NCBI GenBank assembly: GCA_033977485.1
Contig: CM066991.1
Coordinates: 33,601,850-33,665,849 of the forward strand
Source: Hydrangea macrophylla
Lineage: Eukaryota; Streptophyta; Magnoliopsida; Cornales; Hydrangeaceae
Direction of reading: 5' to 3'
DNA length: 64,000 nt
The position numbers and the translations under genes were made by a program. The notes under the pieces were generated by a model, which ran no database searches, was not told where the DNA came from, and was given only the letters and a program-made list of their open reading frames with translations. Positions 33,473 through 55,900 of the stretch are shown piece by piece (position 1 is the first letter of the stretch; each line of letters opens with the position of its first letter).

Positions 33473-33479
33473 ATTATCC

Positions 33480-35041
33480 TCTTTATACTCTTCAAGGGTA
33501 GAGAAGGGTAAATTGCACCCTATAATCTTACTGCTACTCAGAGTAGTTACGATTTTTGCTTGTTCGTGATTAGTGGGACCATTGTTGTATCCCTTAGGGT
33601 TTTAAAGTGGTTGCGCAGGAAACGTTCCACTTGACCCCTCTTGTCGTGGATCCATTCTCTCTAATGTTGCGGACGTTTTACTCATCATTTGAATTAACTA
33701 TTGTGTTAAATTTGCATTAGAGATTAGATCTTCCTCTTGCACCTTTTTGTGCAGTGGCACATAGATATTTGATTGCGGATTATTAGAGGGTTGGGCATGG
33801 TTATAGTTATTTGATCTATTTTGATTGAATGACTGGGACTGCCTATTGTATTGCCCTTGATAGTGATTATTGTTATTGTAGGGCTGTTGTTGTTGATATT
33901 GGTTTAGGGTCCCAGCATCATTTTTTCAATCAAACCCGGGGTGATTCCATCGATTGTTATTCTGAAAATTGTTATTATTGTAGGAATTCCCCGCCCCCTT
34001 ATATCCTTACATGGCATTCATTTCCATGTGGGCTTGTTCTTGAAAGTACGGCACATTGGGACAATATTGATTGGTGTGTCCCAACATGTTGCATGTGCCG
34101 CATGCTTCTTCAGGTAAAACCTGCCTAGAACTATATCCTTTCATTGTCAACTCTTCTACCTTCTTAACTAGTTCTTCATATTTACTCATTAGATGATCCT
34201 CACTTTTTAATTGGTATAGACTCTTCTCCTCTACACAGGATATCTGTGAGCGTGGCACATCTTCCGAATTGGACCATTCATGGGCATGTTCAGCTAGCCA
34301 CTTGAAGTGAGCTTCTGCTTCTTCCGTGTTTTTACGAAGAAATGACCCTGAACTTATGGTTTCGAATAACTTTTTAGTTTCACCATTTAACCCTTCATAA
34401 AAGTAGCTTATGGTTCACCATTTCTCATACCCGTGATGTGGACATGAAAGAAGCAAATCCTTGAAACGCTCCCAAATTTGAGTGAAGGTTTCATTGCTCT
34501 TTTGTTTATAAGAGTTAATTTGTCATTTAAGCTGAGTGGTCATGCGCGGTGGAAAGAATTTCTTTAAGAAAACAGTGTTCATCGCATGCCAGGTATAAAT
34601 CAAATTCGGCTTCAAAGTGAGTAGCCACGCTTTTGCTTTATCCTTCAAAGTGAAAGGAAATAGCATTAGACATGTCACATCTATAGGGCAATTTTGTAAG
34701 AATGTTTTACAAACATCCTTGAAGTCCTTGACGTGTAGATATGCCTTCTCGATATCCATTCCATGGAAGGTTGGAAGGAGTTGAATCATTCCGTTGCGAA
34801 ATTAAAATTCGCCAACATGAGGTGGAATGAGAATATAAGAAGGTGTAGGTGCATGTTCGGGTGTCATGAGATCGCACAAAGGACGAAGTGAATCATCAAT
34901 TGGTACAACCACATTCTCATCATTTTCACTTTGATTGTCAGCCATTGAATCGGTTCGTGTGGCTACAGGATTAATAAAATCAGAGGAATCGGCTAAGTAG
35001 AATGGATTTCCGTAGATTCCTTCAATGGAATTATCGAACAT
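33480..35041 (-). pseudogene. gag: Gag of Athila element
   Basis: The likely start is ATG 35041. Gag core has LLPTFHGMDIEKAYLHVKDF and FTLKDKAKAWLLTLKPN (34523-34789); zinc knuckle CGTCNMLGHTNQYC lies in 34007-34258. Stops or frame changes near 34800, 34520 and 34000 break it. The order and motifs match the Athila-like Gag at 10039-12528. Confidence 0.85.
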
Positions 35042-35837: not shown

Positions 35838-35960
35838 GCGATCGATCGAAGCGCTTTCGATCGATCGAATATCTTCATCTCTCGATCGATCGAAATGTCT
35901 TCGATCGATTGACAGTGTCTCTGGTCCGATCCATCGAACAAACTTCGATCGATCGAACAC
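35838..35960. repeat. RATCGATY palindrome cluster, inner part of Athila LTR
   Basis: Six sites such as GCGATCGATCGAAG and TTCGATCGATTGAC in about 120 bp. They lie downstream of the TATA box on minus, in R/U5. Confidence 0.88.
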
Positions 35961-36377
35961 AGGAATTATTCTTCTGCATGGCAGAGGCTTGAGATCACGA
36001 TTTCATCGTGATCTCCCAACCTGGGGACTACTCAGACATGGTTTGGAGTGTCTTAGATTTGTTTTTAACATAAAAGTCCATTAAAGTTTTGTTTGTTTGC
36101 GATTTAAATATAAAATCTATGAAAACTAATGATTTAACCCTATCTAACATGAAATACTATGGTTCTAGCAGATTAACCTACAATAAATAGCAAGTAGACT
36201 GTAAACAAAACGATAAGAAGTAACCTGGAATGATGAACTTATATTAAACTTAATAAAATCCAACCAAAAACAATAGAAATCCTTGATAAAACCTACAAAA
36301 ATAAGAACAAACTCTCTTCTCCCTATGTAAAACTGATAAAAAGTGAAGTGGCCGCCCTTCTGGACGTATACAAAACG

Positions 36378-36391
36378 TATATATATATATT
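36378..36391 (-). promoter_or_regulatory. TATA box of Athila LTR
   Basis: An uninterrupted TATATATATATAT run, the best promoter candidate on minus. The cluster at 36457-36570 begins about 65 bp upstream of it. Confidence 0.5.
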
Positions 36392-36456
36392 ACACTTAAG
36401 GCTAGGGTTAAAAATTCCATTTCTGCTGCGTGCGCATAAATTCTGATAAAAACCAT

Positions 36457-36570
36457 GTTCGATCGATCGAACATCCCTCGATCGATTGAACTTCTGGGAT
36501 CTTCGAGCGCTTGAACATAATTCAATCGATTGAAACCTTGATCGCTCAAAACCTCCTCGATCGCTCGAAA
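36457..36570. repeat. RATCGATY palindrome cluster in Athila LTR U3
   Basis: Six sites in about 115 bp: GTTCGATCGATCGAAC, CTCGATCGATTGAAC, TTCAATCGATTGAA, and decayed forms with GATCGCTC or TTCGAGCGCTTGAA. Confidence 0.88.
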
Positions 36571-36693: not shown

Positions 36694-39600
36694 TAGATTA
36701 ATCATATTGTATAAAAATTGGCATTGTAATTCAAATTGCAGATATACAAGGGAATTGTAGACTAAATCAGTATATTTTCTTCTTTTAGCGCGGTTGTATT
36801 TTACAAATACCCCCGCTTGTCATTTGTAGTGGACCGTCGATCAGTCGGGTCACCTGTCCAATCGGCATCAGAATAAGCACGGAGCTCGAGTGAAGAATGA
36901 GCAAAAAGTGTAAACCATAAAACATTGTTCCCTTGATATATAAAAGAATGTGAAGAACAATAACATAATAAGATGATTGAGGGGTAGAAAGAAAGTGGCT
37001 GACAATATGAACTACATATGCAATATCAGGTCGAGTAACTGTGAGATAAACTAGACTCCCAACTAGCTGGTGATATATTATGGGATCACCTAGAAGAGTA
37101 CCATCCATAGGTGTGAGCTTAGAATTGAGTTCAAGAGGAGTAGGACTGGTCTTGTTATTTGTGAGTCCCACACAAGCAAGAAGATCAGAGGAGTACTTAG
37201 CTTGAGAAAGGTAGTAACCTTCAGAATTGGCAGTGATCTCAAGTCCTAGGAAATAGTTTAGCTTCGTAAGATCTATCATTTCAACATGTTTGCTTAAATG
37301 GGGTTTGAGACCCAAGATTCCATATATATCATCTCCAGTGATAATCATATCATCCACGTAGGGTGGAAAAAGTACCTCAGTCAGTTTGGCAAATGAATAG
37401 AGCCGAATCATAAGAGCTAGCTATGAAGCCGAAGCACTCAACAATTATGCTAAATTTTGCAAACCAGGCTCGTGGAGCTTGTTAGAGGCCATACAGAGCT
37501 TGTAGAGTTTACAGACTTGGTGAGAATGATAAGGATAACCAGGAGTAGGATGCATATAGACTTTTTCAGTGAGATCACAATTAAGGAAAGCATTTTTGAC
37601 GTCCATTTGGAATAAATCCAATAACGGACTGCAGCTACGGCAATGAGGCTGTGAATAGGAGTAAGATGAGCAATTGGGGCAAATGTTACCTCATAATCAA
37701 TCCAATACTCCTGGGTAAAACCTTTGGTTACAAGACGGGCTTTTATAGTGATCAATGGATCCGTTTGAGTGAGTTTTGATTTTGTAAACTCACTTACATC
37801 CCATAGCATTTTTGCCACTTGGTAATTCTACCATATCTCATTGTGTGATTTGTTCAAGCGCCTGTAATTCATCATCCATTACTTTTTACCAAAGAGGATT
37901 AGAGCTTGTTCGCGGTATGATTGAGGTTCAGAATGAGAAAAAATTATAGAAAAAGCAACATGATCACGAAGATGAACAAAAGGAGTTTTTACCCTGTCAC
38001 TTCATTAGAGAGGTGGAATAGTCCATTAAGCGGGTTAGGTAGCTCAGAAGAGAGTAAAATGGATAACTCAGGAGCATCATCAGGAGGAGCATGCAAATCA
38101 AGTGAGGGGGATGTGGAAGAAGGCTGATCTGTAGCTGCACTTTAGGAAATAGGTCTATGGAAGGATCAGTGAAGACAAGGGGAGTAGTATCAGGTGAGAG
38201 GTGAAACTTGGACATGGAGGAAAACATCTTGTGTTCCCAGAATGCCTGGATACACAAAGACATTTGGAGTAAGGATCCCAACATCTGTATCCCTTGTGTT
38301 CAATACTATATCCAAGGAAGCACCATAGTCGGGATTGGGACTCTAATTTGGTGCGTTCATGAAGTTGAAGAAAAACAAAGAAAGCACTGCCAAAGACCTT
38401 GAGTGTACTGTAATCAGGTGAATGACCATATAGTCGTTCATATGGAGATCGATTTTCAATGATTGGAGATGGAAAAAGATTCTTTGTATAGATAGCTATA
38501 AGAGCGGCTTCCCCCAAAACATATTTGGGACAAGAAGCAGATGTAAGGAGAGTACGAATAATGTTTAGAATATCTTGGTGTTTTCGCTTAGCACGTCCAT
38601 ATTGTTGGGAGGTGCCTGGGCAAGAACGGCATGGGAGAGAACCATGCTGGCATAGGAAATTAAGAACTCCAATATCAGTGTACTCAACAGCATTGTCTAC
38701 ACAAAAAACTTTGATATTGCAGGAAAATTGAGTTTTAAACATAGTTGTAAAGTCAAAGTATAGTTGAGATAGTTCAGATCGATTGTGTATGAAAAAAATC
38801 CAAGTATAACAGGAATAATCATCAATAAAAATAACAAAGTATCGTGATCCTCCCATAGTGACAGTGGGAGAGGGGCCCCATACATCTGAATGAATATTAA
38901 AAGGAGCAGAAGAAAATGAATCACTTTTATTGAATTTCAATGCTATTTGTTTTGAAAGTTCACATGGAAGACAATAAATTGGTTCCTTATTAATAGATCC
39001 TAATTAACCACTAGAAACCAAAGGTTATAGGCAACCAATTGAGGCATGGCCAAGACAAGAGTGCCAGAGACTAATAAATGAACTGGAGGAGACTGGAGCA
39101 GCTATCTGAATAGAGGGGCTGAGGTGAGACAGTTTGTGATGATTGATAAGCTCAAAGAGTCGTCCAACTTTACGGCCTATCCCAAGAGTCTATCCCATCT
39201 GCGGATCCTGCACACAATAACCAGAGTATGAAAAAAAAATAATAAGACCAAGATCACACAGTTGTCCAACAGATATAAGATTTATAGTAAGTTTGGGAAT
39301 GTAATAAGTGTGAAGAAATAAAGTATTAGAGGTGAAAACCTTGCCTATATGACTAACCAACATCGGATTACCATCAGCGGTTTGAATGCTTAGTGTGTGT
39401 GCAACATAAATTATGGTAGTGAAAAGAATTGGATCAGGTGTCATATGATTACAACAGCCAGAGTCAAAAAACCAAGATGAGTTACCTGATGTGTCGGAGA
39501 GAGCAATAGGATTGGGATTACCGGTTTGAGCGAAGAATTGTTTGACAAAATCTTCCACATGGGAGGCAGTAAGCCCTTCGGCAAAAGTCTTGGATGGTGA

Positions 39601-39753
39601 ATGATCGACTGTAGTAGCAGCAAATTTAGAGGGACCACCTCGAGGCATGGAGTACTGTTTGACAGGGTGTCGGGTGCAGTCATATTGAAGGTGACCTGGA
39701 CCTTACTTTTGATAGTATTTGCATATTTAAACACGACAATCTAAGAGAGTGTG
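36694..39753 (-). pseudogene. pol: Ty1/copia Gag-Pol remnant
   Basis: Minus-strand pieces in copia order. 39734-39190: end of gag and protease with WFFDSGCCNHMTPDP. 38940-38155: integrase core with FVIFIDDYSCYTWIF and ENRSPYERLYGHSPDYSTLK. 37818-37450: RT start with KARLVTKGFTQEY. 37411-36785: RT active site YVDDMIITGDD, LGLEI and RPDIAYVVHIVSHF, then a frameshifted RNase H. Many stops and frame changes. The N-terminal side is cut by the Ogre LTR at 39754 and the C-terminal side abuts the Athila LTR at 36693. Confidence 0.9.
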
Positions 39754-42012
39754 TGTGGATATCGCAGGTTTTCTTACCCACAGCTTTTCTAAATTAATTT
39801 CTAAAACAAATGAGTCGCCACTTAATTTTTAAAAGGAAAATTAAGAAACCATTTTGAAAGCAAACTGATCTTTTAGAAACCAGAGATTAACTAGGTCTGG
39901 GGATTATGGAATGAGAGAGGAAGGAGCCCATCGGACTAAAGCACCCTCTCTCATCCTATCTTGCGATAGGCCTCTACTCAACATCCTTTTAATCAAATTT
40001 ATTAATCTAAGCATGCCCTCAACTAATACATATATACATATACATCACAAAAGCATGTCCAAATGGTGTAAAATTGCAATTGACAAAATATCATTCAAAA
40101 GCCACGTAATTCAGGTAACAAGCGACATGATATGCAATAGAGAACAAGTGAACTTACCCGAGATCCAGCAGCGATAATAAACGTGCAATGCATGCGAATA
40201 AAAGAAAATCCTAAAAAGAGTCTCTAATCACATATACACATAAGGCAAAACCTAATTCTAAGGTGTCGCGCATTAAGTCGAAAAATCAATAAAAACAAGA
40301 AATTAAGATAAACTAAAGAGGAGTTCTAGAAATCGTACCTTAATAGCGCTACAAAACAAAGGGTTAGTCCACATGATATGCAAAACACAATGTTAAAAAT
40401 GACAATCCTAAATTTCTAGCTTACATCTATCTAATGTAATTAAATCCAAAGCAAATAAGTCTTAATTACAAGTGTCGAATCATATAGATGAATATGTACA
40501 TGGACAAGGATAAACTATGAAATACTCTTAAACTTTGAATTCAAACTCAACTAATCATTATTAAAGCATGGTTTAAGCCCTAGATCATAGAAAAGTCATT
40601 TAGACCCTTATTTACAAAGTAAGTCAAATGTGTCATAAAACTCTGAAAATTGCAGAGAGCAGACCAGAACTTAAAAGACATAAAAAGCATATCTCCCATG
40701 GTTTGATCTTGATGATTTTTGGACTCAATATGCCTCTGTGAGTCTAGTTTTCAAATCAAAAAGAAAATCACAGTTCCAACGGTCGGATCTCCGGGAATAT
40801 GAAAAATACTAGACATCACTCGGCACTTTACAACCTTCTATCCAGAATTCTTGCACGATTTATTAAAAATAGCAAAAAAATCCGAATTGCTTTGTTCTTT
40901 TTAGGGTGACTTCCTAACACATTAATCTTCATAGAAACAATTATTTGGAGTCACAAACACTTTATTAGAACTCTTATTTAATTGTTTCAAAAGAGTGTCA
41001 CTATTCTGAAACTATTCTGAAATTCTGGACAGATTGTATTTGTGTCACAAAACTCATGATCAAACCATCCTAAACATGAAACCACCTTAAAAAAAAAATT
41101 ACAGTGGTAGAATATTGTGTTATTAACACTTTCCCGTTGGTTTCACTTGATTTCAACGGTTAGATTTTGAACTAAAAATCTTTGATCAAAAACAGTTTGT
41201 GGATTCACTGTTTTTACTTTGCTAGTTCAATTTTATTTGGTAACTCCAACTATTAAACCATGAAGTTGAGTTGAACCAAACCACTTCTCTTACCATTTGA
41301 TGGCCATTAGAGACTATAAACCTTTATTCTTCATAGATTTCAAATGAAATATGGATAGACTTCATGAAATCTATAAGATAAGGAATCTAAACCATGGAGA
41401 TGGGTTTAGACTCAAAACTAACTTTCTCCTACCATTTGATGGTCATTGGAGAGGGAGACATGACTATGACCCATGAGTCCTAAAGGAATATAGAAGGGAC
41501 TCCTCAAGACATCAAGTTTAGAAGATCCAACTCATGAATATGGACTTGGATCCTCTTATGAAGTGGTGATCAAACTTTGACTCCTATGTGAGGCACAAGC
41601 CTACATGGGATTCAAAAGATCATGCTCAAGAGATCAAAAGAGATATTGAAGATCTCCAAGACCTTCAAGAGAAGAATATAAACAAGAAAGTGGAAGAAAG
41701 TAATATGGAGACAAGAGAAACTCCTAAGTTTACTTGGTAAACAAAGAAAATAGTGAAAGATTTTAGGATTAGAGATTTTAAGAGAAGAAAGAAAAAGTCA
41801 ATAATCTATGGTTAGAGGATCACCTCCAAATTATCCTCAAAGTTTTCTTTTCTTTGAAGATCTTCCAAGCTCTTCTCTCTAATTCTCTAAACACTCTCTT
41901 TTCTCTCTAAAAAATGTTGGTGTAATGGAAGTATTTTTTGCTTGTGATCTCTCTCCCAATATGTTTCTTGGTGTTCTTCTTGGTCTCCCCTCTTTTAGGA
42001 AGATCCCTTCTC

Positions 42013-42019
42013 TTTTATA
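42013..42019 (-). promoter_or_regulatory. TATA box of Ogre 3' LTR
   Basis: The minus strand reads GTTATAAAAGAGAAGG, equivalent to 4099-4105 in the other Ogre LTR. Confidence 0.6.
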
Positions 42020-42124
42020 ACAAAATTATCAGGTATTTTTGGTGAATTTTGGAGCAAAAAACAGGTGTAATTTTCTCATTTGTTGGTACAATGTGTACTT
42101 TCTGAAATTATGCAGACTGCTGTC

Positions 42125-42443
42125 CAGCGCGGCAGTCCAGATACTGACGCGGCAGTCCATGACTGCCGCTGCGGCATTTCATGACTGCCGTTGCGGCACT
42201 TCATGACTGCCGCGCGGCATTCATCAAATGCCGCGACAATTAATGGATTGTCGCATTTTTGTCAGTCTTACTTTATCAGTTTTTGTTCTTATTCGCATGC
42301 GCATACGTATTGCTCTGCAAAATACAGACTTTAAAAGTGAACGGCAGTCAGAAATCTGTGGCGGCATTCGGTGAACGCCGAAACGGCATTCTCTGACTGC
42401 CGCGCGGCACTCAGGGAGTGCCGCGGCAGTCTTCCGTGTGCCG
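42125..42443. repeat. TGCCGC/GCGGCA array in Ogre 3' LTR U3
   Basis: Counterpart of 4206-4533 with the same two sub-clusters. GACTGCCGCGCGGCACTCAG near 42395 is also found, nearly unchanged, upstream of the PMD gene at 45078. Confidence 0.9.
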
Positions 42444-42700
42444 TTTCTGGCTAAGGTTCCCCTTTTAGGTCTTTTCTCTTTTTGAAACAAATTATTTTTG
42501 AAGATCCTTTCCAAAAGTTGTGTTTTATATCTGAATTCTCCTAAATACCTGGTATTTCCCTCTTTCTGTGAAATTTTATCGCGTTTTGGAGATTTTCGGA
42601 AGAGCTTGGAATACTTCGGATTTTTCGGTCATTGTCATCATTGGACGTGGAGGTGACGCTCTCCTAAATTCGACGGCCGGTCAAAATTGGGGTGTCTACA

Positions 42701-42719
42701 GTTTGCCCCTCTTTGACAG
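42701..42719 (-). other. Polypurine tract of second Ogre element
   Basis: The minus strand reads CTGTCAAAGAGGGGCAAAC directly before the LTR start TGTAGACACC. Confidence 0.75.
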
Positions 42720-43142
42720 AGCTTGTGGAGCAACGCGTCCCATAAGTGAATGTCAAAGCCTGTGTGAAGACAAGCCTTTGACCTGCCTGTCGAATTTAGG
42801 CAAAAACAAAATGCGTTGCAAAAACGGGCGTGCAGCGAAATTCTAATTGGTCGTGCTCCATGACGAGCTGCCTACGTATCCCTGTCAGGAATCAGACCAA
42901 AGCGTAGTTCAGGCATGGGTTGAACATTCACAAACGCAAATAGTCACACGGATGGATGCACCTATCCTGTCGTGATGCACGTGCTATACAACGGTGTTGT
43001 CTGAATTAACCTGGTTATGTAAATGTCATGCTTATCACATTTTCCCTATAAATGACGCGCATTTCGTGGCGTGTTAGTCAGGGAATATTATCTATGCGAG
43101 AATCTGTCACAGGAGTCATGAGAGTGCTTTTGACTTGATCAC
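42720..43142 (-). other. Ogre 3' untranslated region before the tandem array
   Basis: Non-coding. It contains GAGCTGCCTACGTATCCCTG, a phrase I remember as common near the 3' end of Ogre-like elements. No domain. Confidence 0.55.
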
Positions 43143-44709
43143 GAAGGTCAACGCAAGTCCGTCGCGAAAACCGGGAATATAAGTCCGCTATATTCTAAAA
43201 AATGAGGGTTGACGCAAGTCAGTTGCGAGAACCGGGAATATAAGTCCGTTATATTCTCAAAAACGCGGGTTGACGCAATTCCGTTGCGAGAACCGGGAAT
43301 ATAAGTCCGTTATATTCTCAAAAACGCGGGTTGACGCAAGTCCGTTGCGAGAACCGGGAATATAAGTCCGTTATATTCTCAAAAACGCGGGTTGACGCAA
43401 GTCCGTTGCGAGAACCGGGAATATAAGTCCGTTATATTCTCAAAAACGCGGGTTGACGCAAGTCCGTTGCGAGAACCGGGAATATAAGTCCGTTATATTC
43501 TAAAAAACGAGGGTTGACGCAAGTCCGTTGCGAGAACCGGGAATATAAGTCCGTTATATTCTCAAAAACGCGGGTTGACGCAAGTCCGTTGCGAGAACCG
43601 GGAATAAAAGTCCGTTATATTCTCAAAAACGCGGGTTGACGTAAGTCCGTTGTGAGAACCGGGAATATTAGTCCGTTATATTCTAAAAAACGAGGGTTGA
43701 CGCAAGTCCGTTGCGAGAACCGGGAATATAAGTCCGTTATATTCTCAAAAATGCGGGTTGACGCAAGTCCGTTGCGAGAACCGGGAATATAAGTCCGTTA
43801 TATTCTCAAAAACGCGGGTTGACGCAAGTCCGTTGCGAGAACCGAGAATATAAGTCCGTTATATTCTCAAAAACGCGGGTTGACGCCAGTCCGTTGCGAG
43901 AACCGGGAATATAAGTCCGTTATATTCTCAAAAACGCGGGTTGACGCAAGTCCGTTGCGAGAACCGGGAATATAAGTCCGTTATATTCTAAAAAACGAGG
44001 GTTGACGCAAGTCCGTTGCGAGAACCGGGAATATAAGTCCGTTATATTCTCAAAAACACGGGTTGACGCAAGTCCGTTGCGAGAACCGGGAATATAAGTC
44101 CGTTATATTCTCAAAAACGCGGGTTGACGCAAGTCCGTTGCGAGAACCGGGAATATAAGTCCGTTATATTCTCAAAAACGGGGGTTGATGCAAGTCCGTT
44201 GCGAGAACCGGGAATATAAGTCCGTTATATTCTCAAAAACGCGGGTTGACGCAAGTCCGTTGCGAGAACCGGGAATATAAGTCCGTTATATTCTCAAAAA
44301 TGCGGGTTGACGCAAGTCCGTTGCGAGAACCGGGAATATAAGTCCGTTATATTCTCAAAAACGCGGGTTGATGCAAGTCCGTTGCGAGAACCGGGAATAT
44401 AAGTCCGTTATATTCTCAAAAACGAGGGTTGACGCAAGTCCGTTGCGAGAACCGGGAATATAAGTCCGTTATATTCTCAAAAACGCGGGTTGACGCAAGT
44501 CCGTTGCGAGAACCGGGAATATAAGTCCGTTATATTCTCAAAAACGCGGGTTGACGCAAGTCCGTTGCGAGAACCGGGAATATAAGTCCGTTATATTCTC
44601 AAAAATGCGGGTTGACGCAAGTTCGTTGCGAGAACCGGGAATATAAGTCCGTTATATTCTCAAAAACGCGGGGGTTGACGCAAGTCCGTTGCGAAAACCG
44701 GGAATATAA
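43143..44709. repeat. 61-bp tandem array, about 26 units
   Basis: Each unit reads GTTGACGCAAGTCCGTTGCG, AGAACCGGGAATATAAGTCC, GTTATATTCTCAAAAACGCG, G. Units differ by 0-4 bases; the outer ones have diverged most. Each contains two inverted repeats with the same loop: CGCAA-GTCCG-TTGCG and GAATATAA-GTCCG-TTATATTC. The array lies in the 3' UTR of the minus-strand element. Confidence 0.97.
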
Positions 44710-44895
44710 ATCTGGGCCCACGGGCTCAGATGTTTTCAATTTTTCAAGAGTCGGGGCCCGCGAGCTCAGACATTTCGATTTTCAAAATTGGGAGCCCACG
44801 GGCTCAAATATTTTTATTTTCATAAATCGGGAGTCCACGGGCTCAAACATCTCCAATTTTCAAAAATTGGGGGCCCACAGGCTCAAACATTTTTA
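44710..44895. repeat. About 40-bp tandem repeat, five units
   Basis: Units of the type GGGAGCCCACGGGCTCAAAT followed by a T-rich ATTTTCAAAA spacer. The core GAGCCC-AC-GGGCTC is a perfect inverted repeat in the third unit and nearly so in the others. It adjoins the 61-bp array. Confidence 0.85.
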
Positions 44896-45047
44896 AAATT
44901 CCAAAATTTGTAGTCGATGTGTACCCAAGAAACGATCCTGAGGGCCAAAAGCGCAATGAGGGCAATTTTTGGGGCCTCAAATTTAATTTTCGGGACTTGA
45001 TTTGAATTTTTGGGGGGAAAGTAAATATCTTTGAACCGCCTTAATCG

Positions 45048-45180
45048 CGGCACACGCGGTTTTCCGCGGCAGTCCGTGACTGCCGCGCGGCACTCACGGA
45101 GTGCCATTGCGGCACTCGGCGAGTGCCGCGCAGCAGTTGACTGACTGCCACGCACGGAAAAATGAGTGCCGCGTTTGAGG
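45048..45180. promoter_or_regulatory. TGCCGC/GCGGCA array upstream of PMD gene
   Basis: About ten half-sites in 130 bp, including GACTGCCGCGCGGCACTCAC followed by GGAGTGCC. This matches the Ogre LTR array nearly base for base over about 28 bp. It ends about 240 bp before the PMD start codon, so it is probably promoter-proximal. Confidence 0.85.
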
Positions 45181-45416
45181 GGCAGTGGCTTAAACCGCCG
45201 GGGTTCTCTTCCCTTTCTCTCATTCTCTCACTCTCTTCATCTCGAGATCTCTCTGGAGAAAAATTTCCTTTTTCTTTCCTAGCTTGGATTGATCTACCAG
45301 GGGCTTATCAGGTTCGTTCTACTCGATCAAAACTTGATTAATCTCGTTTATTTCCTTGTTTTTCTAAAATTTTCATGAATCTAACGCTCGAATTCTCTCT
45401 TTTCTTTTGATAGATT

Positions 45417-48271
45417 ATGGCGAGTGGTTCAGGACGCAAGAAGAAAGCCAGATATACTGCCACTCATCACCTAGACGCCACGCTTCTACTGAGGGATCCT
45501 GATGAGCATTTATCAGCCCGTGCGTTTAGGCGCGAGGTAAACGCTTCTCTTTTCTTATTTCTCGTCTTTCTTTCTCGTATATCCTCCTCCTTGTGAATGT
45601 AACGTAGAATTGTCACTACTCTTAGATACCCTGTTCTGCATGACATGCTCGTGGCGCCCTTGCGCGTCTCTGATGCTTTATTTGTAAAGAAGTTTTATTC
45701 ATTTTGTTATTATGAACTTCATGCTTGACGAATCAAAACTTATTATTCTCCCTCGTTCATTGGATTTTCGGGTGTCCCAACTGTATCGGTTCTTTTATTT
45801 CCCTTTCAACTTTAAAAGATTTTCGGCTTTTCTCAATTCTTTTCTGTTCCTCTTAGGGTTTACGAATGTGATGTCATTTGAATGAAATCCTGAACATTCC
45901 CCTTTTACTTATTATACTTGTGAATTTTCTCGGGTGTGCTAAGCGCCCTTTTATTGTTCAGACTTGGCTCTTGAGTGCTTGTGATCATATACTACTTCCC
46001 TTGGATTCATATATGCATGTATTTCAGAAATGCGGACAAACTACTTTCCTCTTTTCTTCTCTTTTCGAAACCTTGCTAGAATATTGAATGTTTTTTTCGT
46101 TTATTCATTTCTTCTTGAATGCAAACAAGTGCCTTGCTTGTGAAATCCCTTATGAATACTTTTGGGTTTTTTATTCCTTTATTTATTATTCATTTACTGT
46201 TGTTGCTCTCTTCCTTATCCATTCCCTAACAACAAAACTTTCTATTCTTTTCTTGCAGTTGCAGCCGAAGGTGCTGAAGGGGCATGGCAGCCTCGCCCAC
46301 GGCCACGAGTGGTACACAGAGCTGAGCCCGACTGTGAGGGCTTTGGTGGATGCAGCAGGGTTTGGAGACTTCGTCAAACTTTTGACGAAGAGCTCCAACA
46401 ACCTTCAGCAGATGCACGCGCTGACTGAGCGGTGGTGGGATACCACGAGTACCTTCCACTTCGATTTTGGAGAGATGACGATGACCCCCCTAGACTTCAG
46501 CATGATCACGGGGATTCCATTCGGAGGAGAGCCCCTGCGGCACCTTACAGACCAGGAGTGGGATCAGATGGAGCCCTTGCTAGGGGTGGTCCCGGAGGAG
46601 GCCTTGGTCACTGCTCGATGGTTTATGGATACTTTCCGGGGGAAACCCGGCTTTACGGACGAGCAGATGGCCCGAGGTTTCTTGATGTATGTGCTGGGGT
46701 GCTCCTTGTTGAGCACCAAGGGGGACCGGATTTCCGCTTCCTTGGTAGCGTCGTTGGAGCGCCTGGACCAGGTTGCCGAGTACGACTGGGTTGGTACAGG
46801 GTTGGCCATCCTGTACAGGCACATGAGCGTCATTTCCCGGGACAGGTCGGCTGCTACTGGCGGGTATTGGAGAGCGTGGGAGGTATACTTTTTTCCTATA
46901 TTGCTCATTATCATTTTTCTTTCTTCTTCCTTTTTTTTTTTTTTTTTTTTTTTTAAATGTGAGACTAATCTTCTTTCTTCTCTCTTTGTATCACAGATTT
47001 GGTCCCACGAGTATCTTCGCATGATGTCTCCTCAGACGCGTGATGCCGACGCCCTTATCATGCCCCAGGGGCTGAAATGGGCGAAGGATAGGGTTGGGAG
47101 GAAGACCGGTGCTCATGATTTTGTTTCGTTCAGGAACTTCCTGACGAACCTGAGGGAGGGGCACGTGCACTGGCAGCCGTGGCTCAGGGTGCTGCCCGAG
47201 GCTAGTGTGGGGATTCGAGAGTCGGCCGGGTATGACCCGACGAGGCGACTTCTTGATGGTGGGTCAGAGGGTATGGCGTGGTATTTGGGGGAGAGGGTGA
47301 CCCGGCAGTCGATAGCGGCCCCTGGATTCTTTGTGCCGTTCCCTCCTCCCGTCTCTATGAGGGCCACAGACACGCTTTAGGGCGGCGATCTTACGGCTGC
47401 TCGAGCCGGCTTCGGTATCCACGGCTTTTTGGACGACCCGTCAGGTTATGCGGCTTTCCGTGCCGCCAAGCTGATGCCGAACTTTCCTCTGATGGAAGTG
47501 ACTCAGGTGAGTAAACGATTCCTTTATTATTTATGTGAATTTTCTCTTTATTCTTTACCCATGCTTTATTTCTTTTGCTTGCAGCCTGTTCCTGCCGTGG
47601 TTCGAGCTCCTGCCTTGCCCGAGTGGGACTGGACTATGTCGACCGTCTCATTCAGAGAGCCCCACTCGACGACGATTCCTCGACTTTCACATGGTGCTCC
47701 CACCATACCTCTACATTATGACGTCGTCCCGCGTGCTTATGCGGAGGAGGGCCTAGCGTATGCCCATAGCGTGCGGCAGTGGGTTCTCGGGCGGGAGTGG
47801 ATGGTAAGAAAATTTATCCCCATTCCTACTTTTGACCGGGATTGTATCTCTTTTTACTGATCTTTATTCCTGGCTCTTGTTTTCAGGCTGAGGGAGCTCG
47901 GGCGACTGCTGCGGTTCAGTTGAGGGCCCAGGTATGATCTCCTACCCTTTCCATATTCTTAGTATTCCAAATGTCCTTTCAACACTTTTCTGGACTCATC
48001 CCCTCTCTTCCAGATGGAGGAGAACAGAGTCCTGTCTCAGCAGGTGGGACAGCTCCAGCATTGGCTTCAGCAGTTCGGCATCTCTCTCAGCGATGCCCCC
48101 GGAGGTAGCGGTGCTGGGCGTGGCGGAGGCGTCGGCGAGGGCACTAGCGGTGGCAGAGGCCGAGGCAGCGGGCGTGGAGAGAGTGGTGGAGGCAGCGGGA
48201 CTGAGTCAGAGGAGGAGCCTCTTAGGCGCACGACCCGTCAGGCTCGCGGCCGGGGTCGGGGTCGGAGCTGA
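45417..48271 (+). pseudogene. Plant mobile domain (PMD) gene, six exons, antisense in Ogre element; one internal stop
   Basis: Exons 45417-45536, 46259-46882, 46997-47506, 47585-47803, 47887-47931 and 48014-48271. Every intron is GT-AG and every exon is a whole number of codons (40, 208, 170, 73, 15 and 85 plus stop). Exon 1 is basic (SGSGRKKKARY). Exon 2 holds the PMD (PF10536-like) with WWDTTSTFHFDFGEMTMTPL and DFSMITGIPFGGEP. Exon 5-6 adds a short Gln-rich helix, then a Gly/Arg/Ser tail with RGRGSGRGE and RGRGRGRS, like RGG boxes that bind RNA. TAG at 47378-47380 in exon 3 is the only break. PMD proteins such as MAIN/MAIL1 act in silencing and expression in the nucleus; transposon-borne forms are known. 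A 5' UTR intron ends at about 45413. Confidence 0.85.
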
Positions 48272-48660
48272 TCCTGCTTATATATTTTTTTTGTTTTCTT
48301 TTGAGAGGATTTTTTATTTTGGTGGATGACTGTATATATATACACATATGCTTTATTTTGATGGTTGCTTCCTTATAGTTGGTAGGATAGATGTTTTGCA
48401 CTTTTATGTTTTCTTTGCTTACTCACCGTATGTGTGACCATAGCTTGGTCCAACTCTTGCCGTATGTGGGACCATGGCTTGGTCCCGACTTTATTTTGAA
48501 TGCTCTTGCTTCTTTTATCTTTTGAAAATAAATGAAATGAATGAATGAATGTATTTGTACGTGCTGCATGATGCGCATGTTTTTATTGCTTCTCAATTAG
48601 TTTTCTGTTTACAGGTGGGCTGATCGTGTTACAAACAGATTCTGGCCAATGAAAAACTCA
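48272..48660. other. Interval between the PMD and DUF7745-like genes
   Basis: Contains the PMD gene 3' flank (TATATATATACACATATG near 48335) and two near repeats of CCGTATGTGNGACCATNGCTTGG (48427 and 48459; N marks varying bases). No further gene. Confidence 0.65.
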
Positions 48661-48662
48661 GA

Positions 48663-48791
48663 ACGGCACTCGGTTAGGCCTCCGCGGCACTCAGTGAGAG
48701 CCGCCACGGCAGTCTTTAAATGCCGCAACGGCATTCACTGACTGCCGCGCGGCGCTTCATCGAGTGCCGCTGCACTTTATCGAGTGCCGCG
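48663..48791. promoter_or_regulatory. TGCCGC/GCGGCA array upstream of DUF7745-like gene
   Basis: About ten half-sites, including GACTGCCGCGCGGCGCTTCA and two GAGTGCCGC sites. It ends about 25 bp before the TATA-like box at 48816 and 90 bp before the ATG. Same phrase as in the Ogre LTRs and before the PMD gene. Confidence 0.87.
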
Positions 48792-48815
48792 GGTAGGTAG
48801 ACAGCCTTATTCTTC

Positions 48816-48824
48816 TATTTATAT
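48816..48824 (+). promoter_or_regulatory. TATA-like box of DUF7745-like gene
   Basis: CTATTTATATCCC, about 57 bp upstream of the ATG at 48881, directly after the palindrome array. Confidence 0.55.
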
Positions 48825-49295
48825 CCCTTCATTCTCAAAGTTCCGCAAAACACTTCTCATTCCTCCTTATTCTCCCCTCAATGGCCCCCATTGGTTCTCA
48901 AATCCTCTTCCCATGGATGGATACTCTCTCGGGTATTGACAGACTTAACTTTGAGTGTTTCAGACTGAACGATCTCTTTTCGTTTCGACGGATGAGTTTG
49001 AATGAGGGTCTACTTCGGGCTGCCATTCAATGTTGGGATCCCACTTTCAATGTCTTCCGCTTTGGTTTTCAAGAGATCTGCCCATTGTTTGAGGAGTTTA
49101 GCGCCATTCTCCACACGGATCCTTCTGCTGAATTGATGGTTCCTCAGATTCAGGCCGGGTATGTTCGGGACTTAGCCAGCCTTCTCCGCACGTCTCGGAA
49201 TGCGGCGGGCTCTTTTGTTCATGACAGGCAAATCGACTTTGAGCGCCTTTCCTCTGTTTACGCTCCCATAGGGGACCCTTACGATGGTGAGTATC

Positions 49296-49300
49296 AGATC
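49296..49300. repeat. TSD of Tekay element, left copy (AGATC)
   Basis: Matches 59738-59742; its single-copy state restores the reading frame of the interrupted gene. Confidence 0.93.
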
Positions 49301-49402
49301 TGTAATACCCTGTATTCTTGTAATGTATTATATAACTAAGACATTGTATGTTTATTTTAATACTTGTATGAGCTTGGCCTTACCCTTGGTATATTTTACA
49401 TA

Positions 49403-49508
49403 CCAATCGATTGAACTTTATCTCAATCGATTGATTATTCCAATCGATTGAACTCTATACCAATCGATTGATTATATCAATCGATTGACACTTATGTCAA
49501 TCGATTGG
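49403..49508. promoter_or_regulatory. CAATCGATTGA cluster in Tekay U3
   Basis: Six sites in about 105 bp, ending 60 bp before the TATA box. The core is the 10-bp perfect palindrome CAATCGATTG. The 3' LTR has the same cluster at 57625-57730 with one decayed site. Confidence 0.9.
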
Positions 49509-49549
49509 AGGCAGCTGGGCAGATTCTTTTGCTCTGGCTGGGGGGAAGG

Positions 49550-49576
49550 CACGTGAACACTCTCTCCTTATATATA
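49550..49576 (+). promoter_or_regulatory. G-box and TATA box of Tekay 5' LTR
   Basis: CACGTG at 49550-49555 and TATATATA at 49569-49576. The expected transcript start is near 49600, within GGGCGTATTTCTG. G-box-binding bZIP or bHLH factors are candidate activators. Confidence 0.7.
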
Positions 49577-49639
49577 CCAGCCCATTTTGGGCGTATTTCT
49601 GTTTACAGAAATCAGAGAGAGTGAGAGGGAGAGTTTTGT

Positions 49640-49815
49640 GTGTGTTTATATATATATATACACTCATATATATATATACTCATATATATACATATACTTA
49701 CACACACACAGATATGGACTGAGACAAGAAGAAGAAGAAGACCAGAAAGAAGAAGAGAAGAAGGAGAAAGAGAAGAGAAAAGACAGAGAGCAGAGGAAGG
49801 AGAGGGAGGAGCCAC
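49640..49815 (+). repeat. Microsatellite and purine-rich leader in Tekay LTR
   Basis: (TA)n and CACACA runs at 49647-49712, then a GAAGAA/GAGAAG purine tract at 49725-49815. Probably the R/U5 start of the transcript. Confidence 0.85.
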
Positions 49816-49998
49816 CATTAAAGCTCCAAGCTTCAACACACATTCCCAAACACACCCTTAACGCCTAGGTGAGTTCTAAACTCACTTGGTAACTTGATAT
49901 TGATGTTAGGACATGTTTTGAATGAAGAAATGGAGAAGAAACCATGTATTTCCCGTTTATATGTGCTGGGCAGTCTTCTCTGTGAAGAAGACGAAGTG

Positions 49999-50165
49999 TC
50001 AATTGATTGACACTATATCAATCGATTGACATCTTTCATGTCTCAATCGATTGACATTTTATGCAATCGATTGACATGGATTGTGATCCAATCGATTGAA
50101 CTTTCTTCCAATCGATTGACACTACTTTTATACCAATCGATTGACATCTATATCAATCGATTGGA
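49999..50165. repeat. CAATCGATTGA cluster in Tekay R/U5
   Basis: Eight sites in about 170 bp, most reading CAATCGATTGACA; one is CAATTGATTG here and CAATCGATTG in the 3' LTR. Transcribed if the start is near 49600. Counterpart at 58221-58387. Confidence 0.9.
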
Positions 50166-50487
50166 AGTTGCAGTTTACTGTCTTACTTGTTTAGATAATG
50201 TAATAACTGTTTTGTTGTTTATTTACTGTTCAGTACTTCCCAGCATGCTTCATTATTGTAATACCGACATGATAACGAGTTAATGCAGCATAGGATCGTA
50301 GTAATAACAAGACTATCGAATAACGTTATAATGTTAGATAACGGAATAGTTGTGAATCCTTTGGAGTTAACGTTCAGTTCATTCAGAGTAGTCGGGCCAC
50401 ATTGGGATTGTCATGTATCGGTAATAGAGTTGAACTTAAGTAGGTTTGCTAAGATTCGGGAACCTTGCGTGGGCGGGCTTTGGTCGA

Positions 50488-50815
50488 TCATATGTTCTTA
50501 AAAGCGGTAGACAGACGAAGGTGTCTATGACTTGCGGTGAACCGGACCATTTGCCCTAAAATAGCCAGATGATCTAATCATATGTTCTTAAAAGCGGTAG
50601 ACAGACGAAGGTGTCTATGACATGCGGTGGACCGTGATCACTGGTAGACGTCGCTAAGTCGTGGCATAGAATGATGTACTGTTGTTTAAAGCGTTATATC
50701 CCTGACATGCGGTGAACTGTGCATATGTTCTTAAAAGCGGGGGATGGACTAACGTGGTATCCATGACATGCGGTGAACTGTGCATATGTTCTTAAAAGCG
50801 GTGGATGAGCAATGG
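50488..50815 (+). repeat. Diverged tandem repeat in Tekay LTR
   Basis: Four copies of CATATGTTCTTAAAAGCGG, each followed by a GTATCCATGACATGCGGTG-type phrase, spaced about 60-130 bp apart. No known element matches it. Confidence 0.8.
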
Positions 50816-51021
50816 TGTGTTATAGAGTTGAACTACTGTCGAGTCTGTTCCCCTATCTAGACGTATTATCGGTCTTATAATGAGTAAAACGTCAGTAATC
50901 GGATCATTGGTCGATTAAAGGAGTTACCCTTACTGAATTCTAATTTGATTATGGTTTATAACTTGTAATAATATCAATAGTCGATACCCTGTTAGTATCT
51001 AACTCACTCGGCTTTCATTAA

Positions 51022-51204
51022 GCTGACGGCGTTTATGCCGCTGGACATTTCTACGTTCCAGCGCATCCTGGTTATGACTATACAGGTGAAGGGCCTGCAG
51101 AAGAAGACTACTATGCCAGTGACGGAGTTCCTGTGGAGGATTTCCCCGATGGAGGTCAGACCGAAGAAGACTACTACGCCGAGGACTACCCTTATGCCAA
51201 CTGA
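51022..51204 (+). other. Acidic Tyr-rich open frame inside Tekay LTR
   Basis: A 60-codon frame without ATG, preceded by a stop and ended by TGA. It has two related blocks, AEEDYYASDGVPVEDFP and TEEDYYAEDYPYAN. The 3' LTR copy (59244-59426) keeps the frame. The upstream TTTCATTAAG could act as a 3' splice site, so it may be a captured terminal exon. Confidence 0.4.
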
Positions 51205-51522
51205 AGACTAGACTAGAATTGTAGCTAATTGCCTTTACCGTTTTAGAACTTTTTGTAGTCAGGCATATGTTGCCTTGGCATTTGTACTTCCGCTGCTTTA
51301 TATTTAATTCGAGACTCTGATATGTAATAGTTAGTAACTTCTGTTGACTTTATGTTACGTTGAGATCAGAACCTAGACTTCATTCTTGTTACACTATTAC
51401 TTCTTGTTGCTTAGTACTGCGTGGTGTGGACAATCATGTGACTTCACCCGTCATTCCCTATGGACCCATAAAGGAAATTTATTTTTCTCTATTTATGCCG
51501 TTCCGGGGCATGACAGGATTTT

Positions 51523-51539
51523 TGGTATCAGAGCCTAGG
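51523..51539 (+). other. PBS of Tekay element (tRNA-Met)
   Basis: TGGTATCAGAGCCTAGG, starting seven bases after the LTR end GACA. Standard initiator tRNA-Met complement. Confidence 0.93.
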
Positions 51540-51653
51540 TCGTATACCTTTTCGCTCACAGATTGTCCCACACCATCTGGTCCTAGAACCTTGAGATTCT
51601 ATAGATGAGTATTAAGATTAGTTCTGACTTAAGGTAGTTCCTTTTTAGGTAGC

Positions 51654-52577
51654 ATGGCACCGCCGCTGTTCGTTCCAGACGAGTTCGGAGGACACTATAT
51701 GTATGAGAGTAGTATTGCGCCAGCAGATCCAGAGTACTATGCCTGGAAGGTTAGACAGAGAGCTATTGCAGAGACAGAGCGAGACATGCAGATCGAACAG
51801 CAGAGATTTGGGACCCAGGACCCAGAAGTGATACGTCAGGAGATGATCTACCGCAAGGAGACCTTCAAACGCATCGAGGAGGATTCTCTATTGATGTTAC
51901 GAGACCGTTCTTTGTACCAGGTTCTACTTGCACAGGTTAGAGCAGCACCTCCACCCCCACCAGAAGAGGACATGGCTGATGCACCCCCAGCAGATGAGGA
52001 TCCGGAGGATGATGATGAGACCGATGACGACGATGAGCCAGAGGATGCAGATGAGGAGATGGAGGATGAGGAGGACGAGGACACCGATGACGAGGAGCCG
52101 GAGTATGATCCAGAGGAGGAGGACCCCGTGGACCCAGCCGGTATGGACGTGCCAGTTGGCGTTGATATTGTAGTTGCAGAGGGTTATCCGATAGAGGAAG
52201 AGGAGGTAGCCACAGACGATGATGCAGTAGTACCAGTCTTACCAGGAGGAGTTATAGCACAGCTAGCAGCTGAGTGGGCCGCAGAGATGGCTGCACATCC
52301 CCATGGATTCGAGATCGGAGCACCGGAGTTGGCACAGGCTATGGTACAGGCTGAGGCACTTGCAGCCGCATTTGATGCAGCCCAGGCTGACATGGCCGCT
52401 GATGCAGGAGATCTGGGAGCTGTTGTGGAGCATGATGGACCCGAGCTGATCGAGGACGTAGTGATAGAGGATGAGGATGTGATGGATGACGATGACATGG
52501 ATGAGGATGATGTTTTGTCTGAGGTTGCCCCAGAGGACGAGGCTTCCATCTATGGATCCGATGTGGACAACTTTTGA
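51654..52577 (+). CDS. Acidic ORF1 of Tekay element, 307 residues, unknown function
   Basis: Intact frame between PBS and gag, in a different frame from gag-pol. Residues 1-100 are a mixed helical part (VRQRAIAETERDMQIEQQRF, ending SLYQVLLAQVRAA). A Pro run follows, then a highly acidic tract at about 105-160 with almost only Asp/Glu. Residues 160-260 are Ala-rich and 263-307 acidic again. No membrane segment or zinc finger. Most chromoviruses I know have gag directly here. Acidic tracts of this kind occur in histone chaperones and activation domains; either role is inference. How the downstream gag-pol is translated (390 bp later) is unclear; splicing is possible. Confidence 0.8.
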   Translation: MAPPLFVPDEFGGHYMYESSIAPADPEYYAWKVRQRAIAETERDMQIEQQRFGTQDPEVIRQEMIYRKETFKRIEEDSLLMLRDRSLYQVLLAQVRAAPPPPPEEDMADAPPADEDPEDDDETDDDDEPEDADEEMEDEEDEDTDDEEPEYDPEEEDPVDPAGMDVPVGVDIVVAEGYPIEEEEVATDDDAVVPVLPGGVIAQLAAEWAAEMAAHPHGFEIGAPELAQAMVQAEALAAAFDAAQADMAADAGDLGAVVEHDGPELIEDVVIEDEDVMDDDDMDEDDVLSEVAPEDEASIYGSDVDNF

Positions 52578-52966
52578 GCCCAGTACCTTTAAGACTTAGA
52601 CTTTTACGCTTGACTTTAGGACATGTTGTCCACTTACTTTTGACGCTTACATAGACAGCTATTGACCGTAACCTTTTTGTATAGGTAGCCACCAGTAGTG
52701 GTTTTGTGTATATCTTTCTTTTGTTTAGATCTTGTATAGGATCATGTACTACGCGGTACACAGATGATTTATTGTGTACTCCGCTGTACATCTTTTGGGT
52801 ATATATATATGGCAGATCGTTTCTCTTGGTTATTTCTGTTATCATCTCATTATTATGTTATGGTTGTGATTTTGATTCATGTTATGCTTCTTGTTATGAT
52901 CATTTCCCCGAGAAGATTGTCAGCTAATCGTTAGATCCTTCATAGGTACACCTCACACGGATCACT
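52578..52966 (+). other. Spacer between ORF1 and gag
   Basis: Non-coding. Contains GTACACAGATGATTTATTGT, TATATATATATGG and, just before the gag ATG, CCTTCATAG/GTACACC, which could be a splice acceptor. Confidence 0.5.
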
Positions 52967-55900
52967 ATGGTGGGACCCACAAGGAACCAAGCACGACTGG
53001 GAGCACCCATTCCCGAGGGTATGGACCCAACTGGAGTCTTCGAAGCTTTCATGCAACGGATGGAGCACATCGGCGATACCTACAATCATGCCACCAACGA
53101 CAATGGCAACAACCACTTTGTCCCTCCAAGGCAGACATGCGATAAGCTATTGGAACGATTTCGTGGCCTGCGACCCGAGAAGTTCGACGGCATGGCAGAG
53201 TCCTGGAAAGCAGAGCAATGGATACGAGAGTTGGAGCTAATCTTTGAAGCCCTGGAGTGCAGTGAGCTTGACAAGAGACGTCTAGCCGCATTTCAACTGA
53301 CTTACTCCGCCGCGGACTGGTGGGAGGCCGAGAGAGCCACGATTGGAATTGACGCTGCAAGGAGAATGCCTTGGGAAGCATTCAAGACTCGATTTCTCGA
53401 GAAGTATTTCCCTGAGGACGAAAGAGACCAACAAGAGAGGAATTTCCTGAGTCTAACCCAAGGAAACTGGACGGTCAGGGAGTATACTACACAATTTGAG
53501 CGACTTTCCCGTTTCGCTCCACATATGATAGACACCTCCGTCAAGAAGGTCAAGCGATTTCACCAAGGACTCAACCCACACCTCCGGCACATGATGATAG
53601 GCCATCTGGGCCAGTTGTTTGAAGGGATTGTCCGTCTTGCTTCAAGTTTGGAAAAGGATGCTTACCCTGTGCAAGGACCACAAGTGAATCAACCTCCACC
53701 CAGGACCTTCCAACCAAGGAACTTTCCCGCGCAATCATCAAAGAACAATCAAGGATGGAAACCCCAGACCAACAACTATCAGGGAACCAAGCGCACATGG
53801 GATGGGACAAGGAAGCCCCAAGCCAATTTTCCTCGACAACAGAATCAACAGCGAGGACCACCTCAGGCACAGCCCGTCGCCCAGCGACAAAACACTGATG
53901 GATGTTTCAACTGTGGAGTGCCCGGACATATTGCAAGGTATTGCACAGCTCCCAAGACCAACCGGCGTAATGACCTCGTTTGCCGCAACTGTAACAAGCC
54001 TGGTCACATAAGCAAGGATTGTCGAGCACCACGTGGAGGCTACTATGGAGTGCCTGCTCAAGGACAGCAAGGACAGGTTAGGGTGAATGCCATCATCCCT
54101 GACAATGCAGGGTATAATGCGGATGAACAGCAAAACTTGGAAGGTACACTCATTTTATTTCACTGTCAAGTTAGAGCTTTGTTTGATACCGGTGCCGCCC
54201 GTTCTTTCATAGCTATTAAGATGGTACGTGATTTGGGTTTGCTACCCCTAGCACTTGAGCCGACCCTTAATGCCGTTTCGCCCTTGGGAGTATCCATTAA
54301 GTTAGGTAAGGTGTGCAAGGATTGTCCCTTGACACTAGAGGATAGGAATTTTCCAGCAGACTTGATAGTCTTGTCAATGTCTGAGTTCGATGTGATCCTA
54401 GGAATGGATTGGCTTACTAGGTATGGCGCTAACCTGGATTGTGTTAGTCGGACCATTGTCTTTTCGACGCCTGGTTGCCCGCAGATCAGATTTCAGTGCC
54501 AACCGTTGAGCGACATGTTTATCACGAGCTGCCTAGCCACGATTAAGACCTCAAGCACGGAGCTTACTATCAAGCAGATCCCTGTTATTCAAGACTTTGA
54601 AGATGTGTTCCGAAGTATCTCAGGACTTCCGCCGAAGAGAGAGATAGACTTCTGCATTGAGTTAGCACCCGGAACATTGCCGATTTCCAAGACCCCGTAT
54701 CGGATGGCGCCAACAGAAATGTTGGAATTGAAGAAGCAAGTTCAGGAACTCGAAGATTTAGGTTTTGTTCGCCCCAGTACATCGCCTTGGGGAGCACCAG
54801 TTCTATTTGTGAAGAAGAAAGACAGAGAGCTACGACTCTGTATCGACTACAGGGAGCTGAATAAGGTCACGATCAAGAATAGGTATCCACTTCCCCGGAT
54901 AGACGACCTGTTCGATCAACTACAAGGATCAAGGATATTCTCGAAAATCGATTTGCGTTCAGGATACCATCAATTACTAGTTCGGCCGAAAGATATACCG
55001 AAAACTGCCTTCAGGACGAGATATGGACACTACGAATTTCTAGTGATGTCTTTTGGATTGACTAATGCCCCGGCAGTATTCATGGACCTAATGAATAGAG
55101 TATTCAGACCCTATCTGGATCAATTCATTATAGTATTCATCGACGACATTCTAATTTATTCAAGGACGGAAGAAGAACATAAGAAGCATCTACAAATTGC
55201 TCTACAGACTCTTAGAGACAACAGTCTGTATGCGAAATTCAACAAATGTGAATTCTGGCTTCAGGAAGTTAAATTCCTGGGACATGTGATATCACAGGAT
55301 GGGATTTCCGTAGACTCATCTAAGATCGATGCAGTCTTGAGCTGGAACAGACCAACCAACGCGACCGAAGTTAGGAGTTTTCTTGGATTGGCTGGATATT
55401 ACCGGAAATTTGTGGAAGGATTCTCTAGAATCGCAGGACCGTTGACAAGCCTGACTAGGAAAGAGACGAAGTACGAATGGACCGATAGACATGAGGATGC
55501 ATTCCGGGAATTGAAGGAGAGACTAACCTCAGCACCCGTGCTTGCGATATCTAAGAGTGGTGAACAATTCATAATCTATAGTGATGCATCACACCAAGGA
55601 CTTGGTTGTGTGCTAATGCAAGAGGGGAATGTCATCGCATATGGATCAAGACAATTGAAGCCGCATGAGAAGAACTATCCGACGCACGACTTAGAACTAG
55701 CCGCAATCGTGTTTGCCCTGAAGATTTGGAGACACTATTTGTATGGAGAAAAGTTTGACTTGTTCTCAGATCACAAGAGTTTAAGGTACCTGTTCTCTCA
55801 AAAGGAGTTGAACATGCGACAACGGAGATGGATGGAGCTACTCAAGGACTACGACTTCTCTTTGCAATACCACCCGGGTAAAGCGAATGTTGTAGCCGAC

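Follow-up and report, generated by a model that had tools for sequence, protein, structure and literature searches.

Clusters of a short half-site, TGCCGC or, in the opposite orientation, GCGGCA, form one cis-element common to the long terminal repeat (LTR) and both antisense genes of an Ogre-like retrotransposon of Hydrangea macrophylla. The element lies in a 64-kb stretch of contig CM066991.1 (assembly GCA_033977485.1, positions 33,601,850 to 33,665,849), called here the window, which is plant DNA crowded with nested retroelements. Its antisense genes encode a PMD protein and a DUF7745-like member of the PMD superfamily. A preliminary description of this DNA had placed such clusters in the U3 of the 3′ LTR (copy B) and upstream of each gene, where they are indeed found, and we add a fourth at 4217–4532 in the LTR of another family member (copy A; Table 1). 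The LTR and the two antisense genes likely form a shared regulon. We think it possible, at somewhat less than an even chance, that the arrays are one cis-regulatory element co-regulating three promoters and most likely read by the element's own PMD-family protein, for which the fold of VANC21 is predicted; a reader encoded by the element is only slightly ahead of one encoded by the host.

The hexamer occurs 53 times in the window against 10.7 expected, a count reached by none of 100 shuffles, and at densities of up to 9 within 150 bp, against no more than 2 in any of 200 Markov simulations. The half-site extends beyond the hexamer first noted to a 9-mer, GASTGCCGC. This has 25 sites in 64 kb (0.28 expected), all 25 of them inside four arrays: 7 in LTR A, 8 in LTR B, 6 upstream of the PMD gene and 4 upstream of the DUF7745-like gene. 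The GA at −3 and −2, which played no part in finding the TGCCG sites, is present at 12/18 array sites in LTR A, 13/17 in LTR B, 6/7 at the PMD gene and 7/8 at the DUF7745-like gene, but at 3/58 elsewhere. Half-site orientation alternates on a 21–22 bp lattice, with about one half-site per 11 bp on average. Steps between neighbours are often 14 and then 7–8 bp, and half-sites of the same orientation, at distances up to 70 bp, recur at 19–22, 40–44 and 62–65 bp, that is, about every two helical turns. A factor contacting at least two half-sites on one face of the helix could occupy such arrays and would then make the promoters of the LTR and of both antisense genes respond in concert.

A pair of words had been remarked on as almost unchanged between the LTR and the PMD gene, and it is: GACTGCCGCGCGGCACTCA is identical at 42395 in LTR B and 45078 in the PMD array, and one base further on GGAGTGCC stands at both. 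A common word of 20 bp could be a trace of LTR arrays transferred to the gene promoters through template switching or recombination, without function. The sharing goes little further, however, as the longest word common to the LTR and PMD arrays is 20–23 bp (one 20-mer, no 24-mer) and the PMD and DUF7745-like arrays have no 16-mer in common. By blastn (E ≤ 0.01) the LTR, PMD and DUF7745-like arrays have no homology in their flanks; the sole match between different stretches, 20 bp long, was of one side of the LTR array with the other. At −1 the commonest base is G in the PMD (5/7) and DUF7745-like (4/8) arrays and C in LTR B (8/17), and the arrays are therefore not the product of one recent copy event. 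We consider functionless copying very improbable.

The arrays stand upstream of the LTR TATA-like box and of both antisense genes, and start sites and promoter activity are presumed there. The claim that each cluster lies near a promoter holds best for LTR B, with a TATA-like box about 110 bp downstream of its U3 arrays, and for the DUF7745-like gene, with one downstream of its array (two arrays of the three inspected); the PMD gene is preceded only by TTAAA at 45190, with no better TATA-like box. The CpG observed/expected ratio reaches 1.2–1.3 in the arrays, compared with 0.37 for positions 39754–42100 of LTR B.

The element's identity as first described, an Ogre 3′ LTR with antisense genes, is borne out by its anatomy. 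LTRs A and B are minus-strand members of one family, 95.1% identical over 2.96 kb. A sequence resembling a primer-binding site adjoins LTR A on its left and a purine-rich tract resembling a polypurine tract adjoins LTR B on its right, and the two LTRs therefore belong to different element copies; no primer-binding site was found left of LTR B, and the 5′ end of copy B lies beyond the window. Since LTR B and the open reading frames (ORFs) for reverse transcriptase and RNase H are on the minus strand, the plus-strand PMD and DUF7745-like genes are antisense. The long LTR (2.95 kb) and the long region from pol to the 3′ LTR holding an extra ORF, here the antisense PMD gene, are those of Ogre/Tat elements. 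Its pol pieces match RVT_1, RT_RNaseH and RT_RNaseH_2, whereas a copia ORF at 36785–37420 matches RVT_2 instead; RVT_1 and RT_RNaseH on one side and RVT_2 on the other separate Ty3 from copia.

An ORF at 46088–47380 assigns the first antisense gene to the PMD family (PF10536, E 4.6e-33, 115.3 bits, cut-off 34.9). Its exon boundaries were placed by eye, and it carries a single in-frame TAG at 47378–47380. The last exon encodes a Gly-Arg-rich tail (GRGRGSGRG, RGRGRGRS). The DUF7745-like gene is split by an inserted Ty3-type element, and for its second half no homolog was found among 377 candidates. Because both genes are broken in the present copy, this copy is unable to make an intact form of either protein. 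Pfam PMD matches in the window are confined to these two genes, among all 28 ORFs of at least 150 aa scanned, a search that a PMD divided into small exons could escape.

An analogy with VANC, the anti-silencing protein of VANDAL transposons, had been drawn, and it was strengthened on the side of structure. After realignment, the best solved match of the PMD structure model is VANC21 bound to its target DNA, a result that recurs with a second model, and the window's PMD protein is thus predicted to share the VANC21 fold. DUF1985 is matched weakly in 22 of 58 PMD proteins (46259–47377 and aligned homologs), which suggests that PMD and VANC may share ancestry; with PMD exon 3 alone the match has E 0.11 and 12.9 bits against a curated cut-off of 35.1. 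On these sub-threshold matches, and on motif orientation, the analogy is less close. A PDB sequence search with the PMD profile returned nothing at E ≤ 1. Two designed repeat proteins in the PDB for exon 3 were discarded, the match covering only 28–29 residues. There was no PMD relative among 96 viral-contig stretches fitting a peptide pattern, and two viral contigs holding an 18-bp pattern are taken as chance. The VANC21 motif is not enriched in the window (1 site, 2.1 expected), nor is the DOWN motif of MAIN/MAIL1, CATGCAGTTT (2 one-mismatch sites in 64 kb, 4.4 expected), whose sites at 17307 and 26860 are both away from the array-bearing promoters. A protein reading the arrays would therefore have its own specificity. 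The link between the PMD and VANC folds is not stated in the titles and abstract openings surveyed on related topics, in which no search was aimed at that link, nor in the available portions of PMC8616336.

Palindrome arrays are common among the retroelements of the window and, as far as the scans reach, need no PMD gene in the same element. When a cluster is defined as four or more copies within 130 bp, 17 hexamers of more than two different letters form at least three clusters outside the 61-bp tandem repeat; two are A/T-rich and 15 come from palindrome families. One palindrome, CAATCGATTG, has 28 copies in the window, 26 of them lying in the LTR pair of the inserted Ty3-type element. Others stand beside a copia gag ORF and copia pol pieces, all on the minus strand, and in a gag-protease element, where no accessory gene was recognised beside the internal array at 9405–9610 (10 of 17 ORFs of at least 50 aa scanned in Pfam, 0 matches). 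A direct repeat of 52 bp at 26178–26294, containing CCGCGGCACTGG, lies close to a Transposase_28 ORF (24595–25170). The TGCCGC copies at 26222–26294 were set aside, being part of this repeat and without the GA flank.

With array-bearing elements that have no PMD match, and with Sireviruses of the same anatomy, the reader of the arrays may be a host protein. In that case a host transcription factor for GCCG-type half-sites would read the arrays, the element would have gathered sites at all its promoters, like the RM boxes of Sireviruses, and the PMD proteins would act elsewhere. AP2/ERF or LBD proteins are, we presume, candidates for such a reader. In Sireviruses, palindromic RM arrays precede the TATA box of the LTR and, in elements that have an ENV gene, that gene as well, and a CGG-CCG core is found in every RM but one; the Sorghum RM includes both GCGGCA and TGCCGC, and the Tnd-1 RM, ACAATCGATTGT, includes the CAATCGATTG of the inserted Ty3-type element (PMC2829016). 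Palindromes common to unrelated elements are what a shared host reader predicts, and their convergence suggests that such readers may exist, in a comparison that was made post hoc and has an uncertain chance level. Within the window, however, GASTGCCGC is confined to the Ogre-like family, a host factor leaves the PMD/VANC fold match unexplained, and Bousios et al. reported no single common binding factor for RMs in the portions available (PMC2829016). We regard a host reader as a substantial possibility, if less than probable. The arrays might instead be CpG-rich repeats grown by slippage, functionless or kept for DNA or RNA structure, for example as hairpins feeding small RNAs. Their folding as RNA is much stronger than that of shuffled sequences (z −6.2 to −9.5), and phased small interfering RNAs from PMD genes are known in tea (PMC10673657). 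But any palindrome array folds so, two other element contexts giving z −9.7 and −7.5, and facing half-sites agree at the variable base in 5 of 11 cases, which is chance (shuffle mean 3.6, P 0.27). Nor does this reading account for one half-site recurring before three promoters with unrelated flanks. An RNA hairpin as the main explanation was rejected on the equal folding of other arrays and the chance-level pairing, and slippage-grown repeats in general are improbable.

The proposed reading of the arrays by the element's own PMD-family protein, a contested step, faces a series of adverse observations. Three further element contexts of the window have such arrays, with PMD matches only in the two antisense genes, and so do Sireviruses (PMC2829016). 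Overall confidence of the PMD models is low (pLDDT 58.5 and 41.5, the latter being poor), and the match to VANC21 (9LNJ), at residues 295–505, is mostly helical and may or may not include the DNA-contacting part. Foldseek alone gives E 0.14 for the first of these models, and for the second, a Camellia model, VANC21 is not among the best 50 of 55 matches. The window's PMD segment has no DUF1985 match at E ≤ 1, and DNA_pol_lambd_f, found in 2 of 58 members and taken as a false match, scores a lower E (2.2e-4) than DUF1985. Comparison of the PMD alignment with the two DUF7745-like gene pieces by hhalign is weak (probability 1.4 and 2.8). VANC21 motifs lie in a single orientation (PMC5735166), whereas the Ogre-like half-sites alternate. 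CpG is also high in the AT-rich stretch that separates the U3 arrays (observed/expected 1.49, 4 CpGs in 95 bp). Between the LTR copies, half-site columns differ at 3/80 against 13/155 in spacers, not significant (p 0.27); array CpGs differ at 4/28 against 18/51 outside, in the expected direction and likewise not significant (p 0.066). The first proposal, of one factor, possibly the PMD or DUF7745-like protein, coordinating or de-silencing the promoters, is partly supported: it has on its side the common cis-arrays at the LTR and both genes, with the PMD-less contexts and Sireviruses on the other. If the reader is the PMD protein, it may keep its own gene, the sister gene and the LTR active in a positive loop.

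Several known systems resemble this arrangement in part. The RMs of Sireviruses, palindromic and mostly CGG-CCG, form CpG islands in the LTR ahead of the TATA box and recur ahead of an extra gene (Bousios et al., 2010, PMC2829016), and the hexamer half-site of Sorghum is identical. Sireviruses are Ty1/copia elements with an ENV-like gene, however, and the RM has been called Sirevirus-specific (PMC2829016), whereas the present element is Ty3/gypsy and has two antisense PMD-superfamily genes and a 9-mer half-site on a 21–22 bp lattice. On sequence grounds the GASTGCCGC arrays have the anatomy of RM arrays but are not Sirevirus RMs, the element being no Ty1/copia. The target of VANC21 is YAGTATTAY, repeated in dense tandem, and binding of this protein frees its own family from methylation (PMC5735166; PMC10398659). 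VANDALs likewise pair an element-encoded protein, here of matched fold, with a family-specific short motif densely repeated in noncoding DNA of the element, as the confinement of GASTGCCGC to its four arrays parallels. They differ as DNA transposons whose motif keeps one orientation and whose DUF1985 is sub-threshold in PMDs, and binding and demethylation, demonstrated for VANC, would be predictions for the Ogre-like element. MAIN/MAIL1 also tie PMD proteins to a promoter motif and to expression of the genes bearing it, but these are host genes with the DOWN motif, and direct contact of PMD with DNA is left open in the available text (PMC7156037; PMC9899485). The title of a further paper refers to modules of PMD proteins and DNA motifs acting against Polycomb silencing (Pelissier, 2025). 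In Retand and Grande an antisense gene lies between pol and the 3′ LTR, with its own promoter in Grande, and a regulatory role has been proposed; there the gene is TRP28, not PMD, and the available portions describe no array shared with the LTR (PMC11963269; PMC7264820). In Del, a Ty3/gypsy element, the 5′ end of the LTR is CpG-rich over a stretch of variable length, proposed to aid escape from host control, with no palindromic half-site array or extra gene described in what was available (PMC4029996).

PMD is present in 57% of Ogre elements, and clades PMD-A1/A2 are exclusive to Gypsy elements; the available parts of these papers leave promoter arrays unmentioned (PMC6317226; PMC5418596). PMD genes share ancestry with host silencing factors (PMC5418596), and the use of PMDs by transposable elements for counter-silencing has already been suggested in print (PMC8616336; for Mutator-like elements, PMC5418596). 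With a concrete DNA target preceding the LTR and gene promoters and a predicted VANC21-like fold, that suggestion becomes a direct question of binding. It is conceivable, though we find it doubtful, that the retrotransposon holds a complete selfish regulon, a counterpart of that in VANDALs, with VANC-fold PMD proteins and cognate arrays at the LTR and both PMD-family genes; PMD and VANC would then be one ancient superfamily of sequence-specific DNA readers later co-opted by plant hosts for gene control. If the reader is a host factor, palindromes common to copia and gypsy elements would indicate a shared host regulator of many retrotransposons.

Table 1. Features of the window (positions count from its first nucleotide).
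Feature	Position	Strand	Remarks
U3 array 1, LTR B	42129-42234		alternating TGCCG/CGGCA
U3 array 2, LTR B	42342-42443		
Array upstream of PMD gene	45047-45172		6 GASTGCCGC
Array upstream of DUF7745-like gene	48664-48790		4 GASTGCCGC
LTR A arrays	4217-4342 and 4431-4532		not in preliminary description
TATA-like box, LTR B	42014-42019	-	TATAAA, downstream of U3 arrays
TATA-like box, DUF7745-like gene	48816-48824	+	downstream of its array
3′ LTR, copy B	39754-42700	-	Ogre/Tat-like Ty3/gypsy; element body to right; basis, identity to copy A and purine-rich tract
5′ LTR, copy A	1836-4791	-	another family member, leaves window at left edge
Primer-binding-site-like sequence	~1805-1835		adjoins copy A LTR on left
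Polypurine-tract-like sequence	42701-42714	-	adjoins copy B 3′ LTR on right
Reverse transcriptase and RNase H pieces of pol	61270-62251	-	Pfam matches
PMD gene	45417-48271	+	antisense, between pol and 3′ LTR; six coding exons
PMD exons	45417-45536, 46259-46882, 46997-47506, 47585-47803, 47887-47931, 48014-48271	+	each a multiple of three; GT..AG introns
DUF7745-like (PMD-superfamily) gene, first part	48881-49300	+	PF24924 (DUF7745), E 0.0017, below cut-off
DUF7745-like gene, second part	59743-60414	+	PMD C-terminal signature, PF10536, E 5.6e-5, 22.9 bits, below cut-off
61-bp tandem repeat	43151-44709		25.5 copies; between 3′ LTR and PMD gene
Inserted Ty3-type LTR retrotransposon	49301-59737	+	interrupts DUF7745-like gene; gag, protease, reverse transcriptase, RNase H
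CAATCGATTG palindrome arrays	49404-49498, 50019-50154, 57626-57720, 58222-58376		LTRs of inserted Ty3-type element
TCGATCGATCGA / TTCGATCGATCGAA arrays	16939-17881 and 35839-36558		beside copia gag ORF 14727-15269 and copia pol pieces 36785-39702
TCGCGCGA-type / TCGCGCGAGCGA-type arrays	6968-7065, 9405-9610, 14042-14145		both LTRs and one internal site (9405-9610) of gag-protease element 5921-14327

No tRNA genes were found in the window. Two stretches, 32077–33679 and 62384–63998, are 83% identical and are perhaps remnants of a second related gag-pol region; ORFs 32478–32945 and 32843–33601 within the first had no Pfam match. Tandem repeats occupy the region corresponding to that of the 61-bp repeat in about half of recently active Retand elements (PMC11963269). 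The inserted Ty3-type element has a chromodomain-like tail match below the cut-off, and its LTR pair is 99.15% identical and flanked by a 5-bp target duplication, AGATC.

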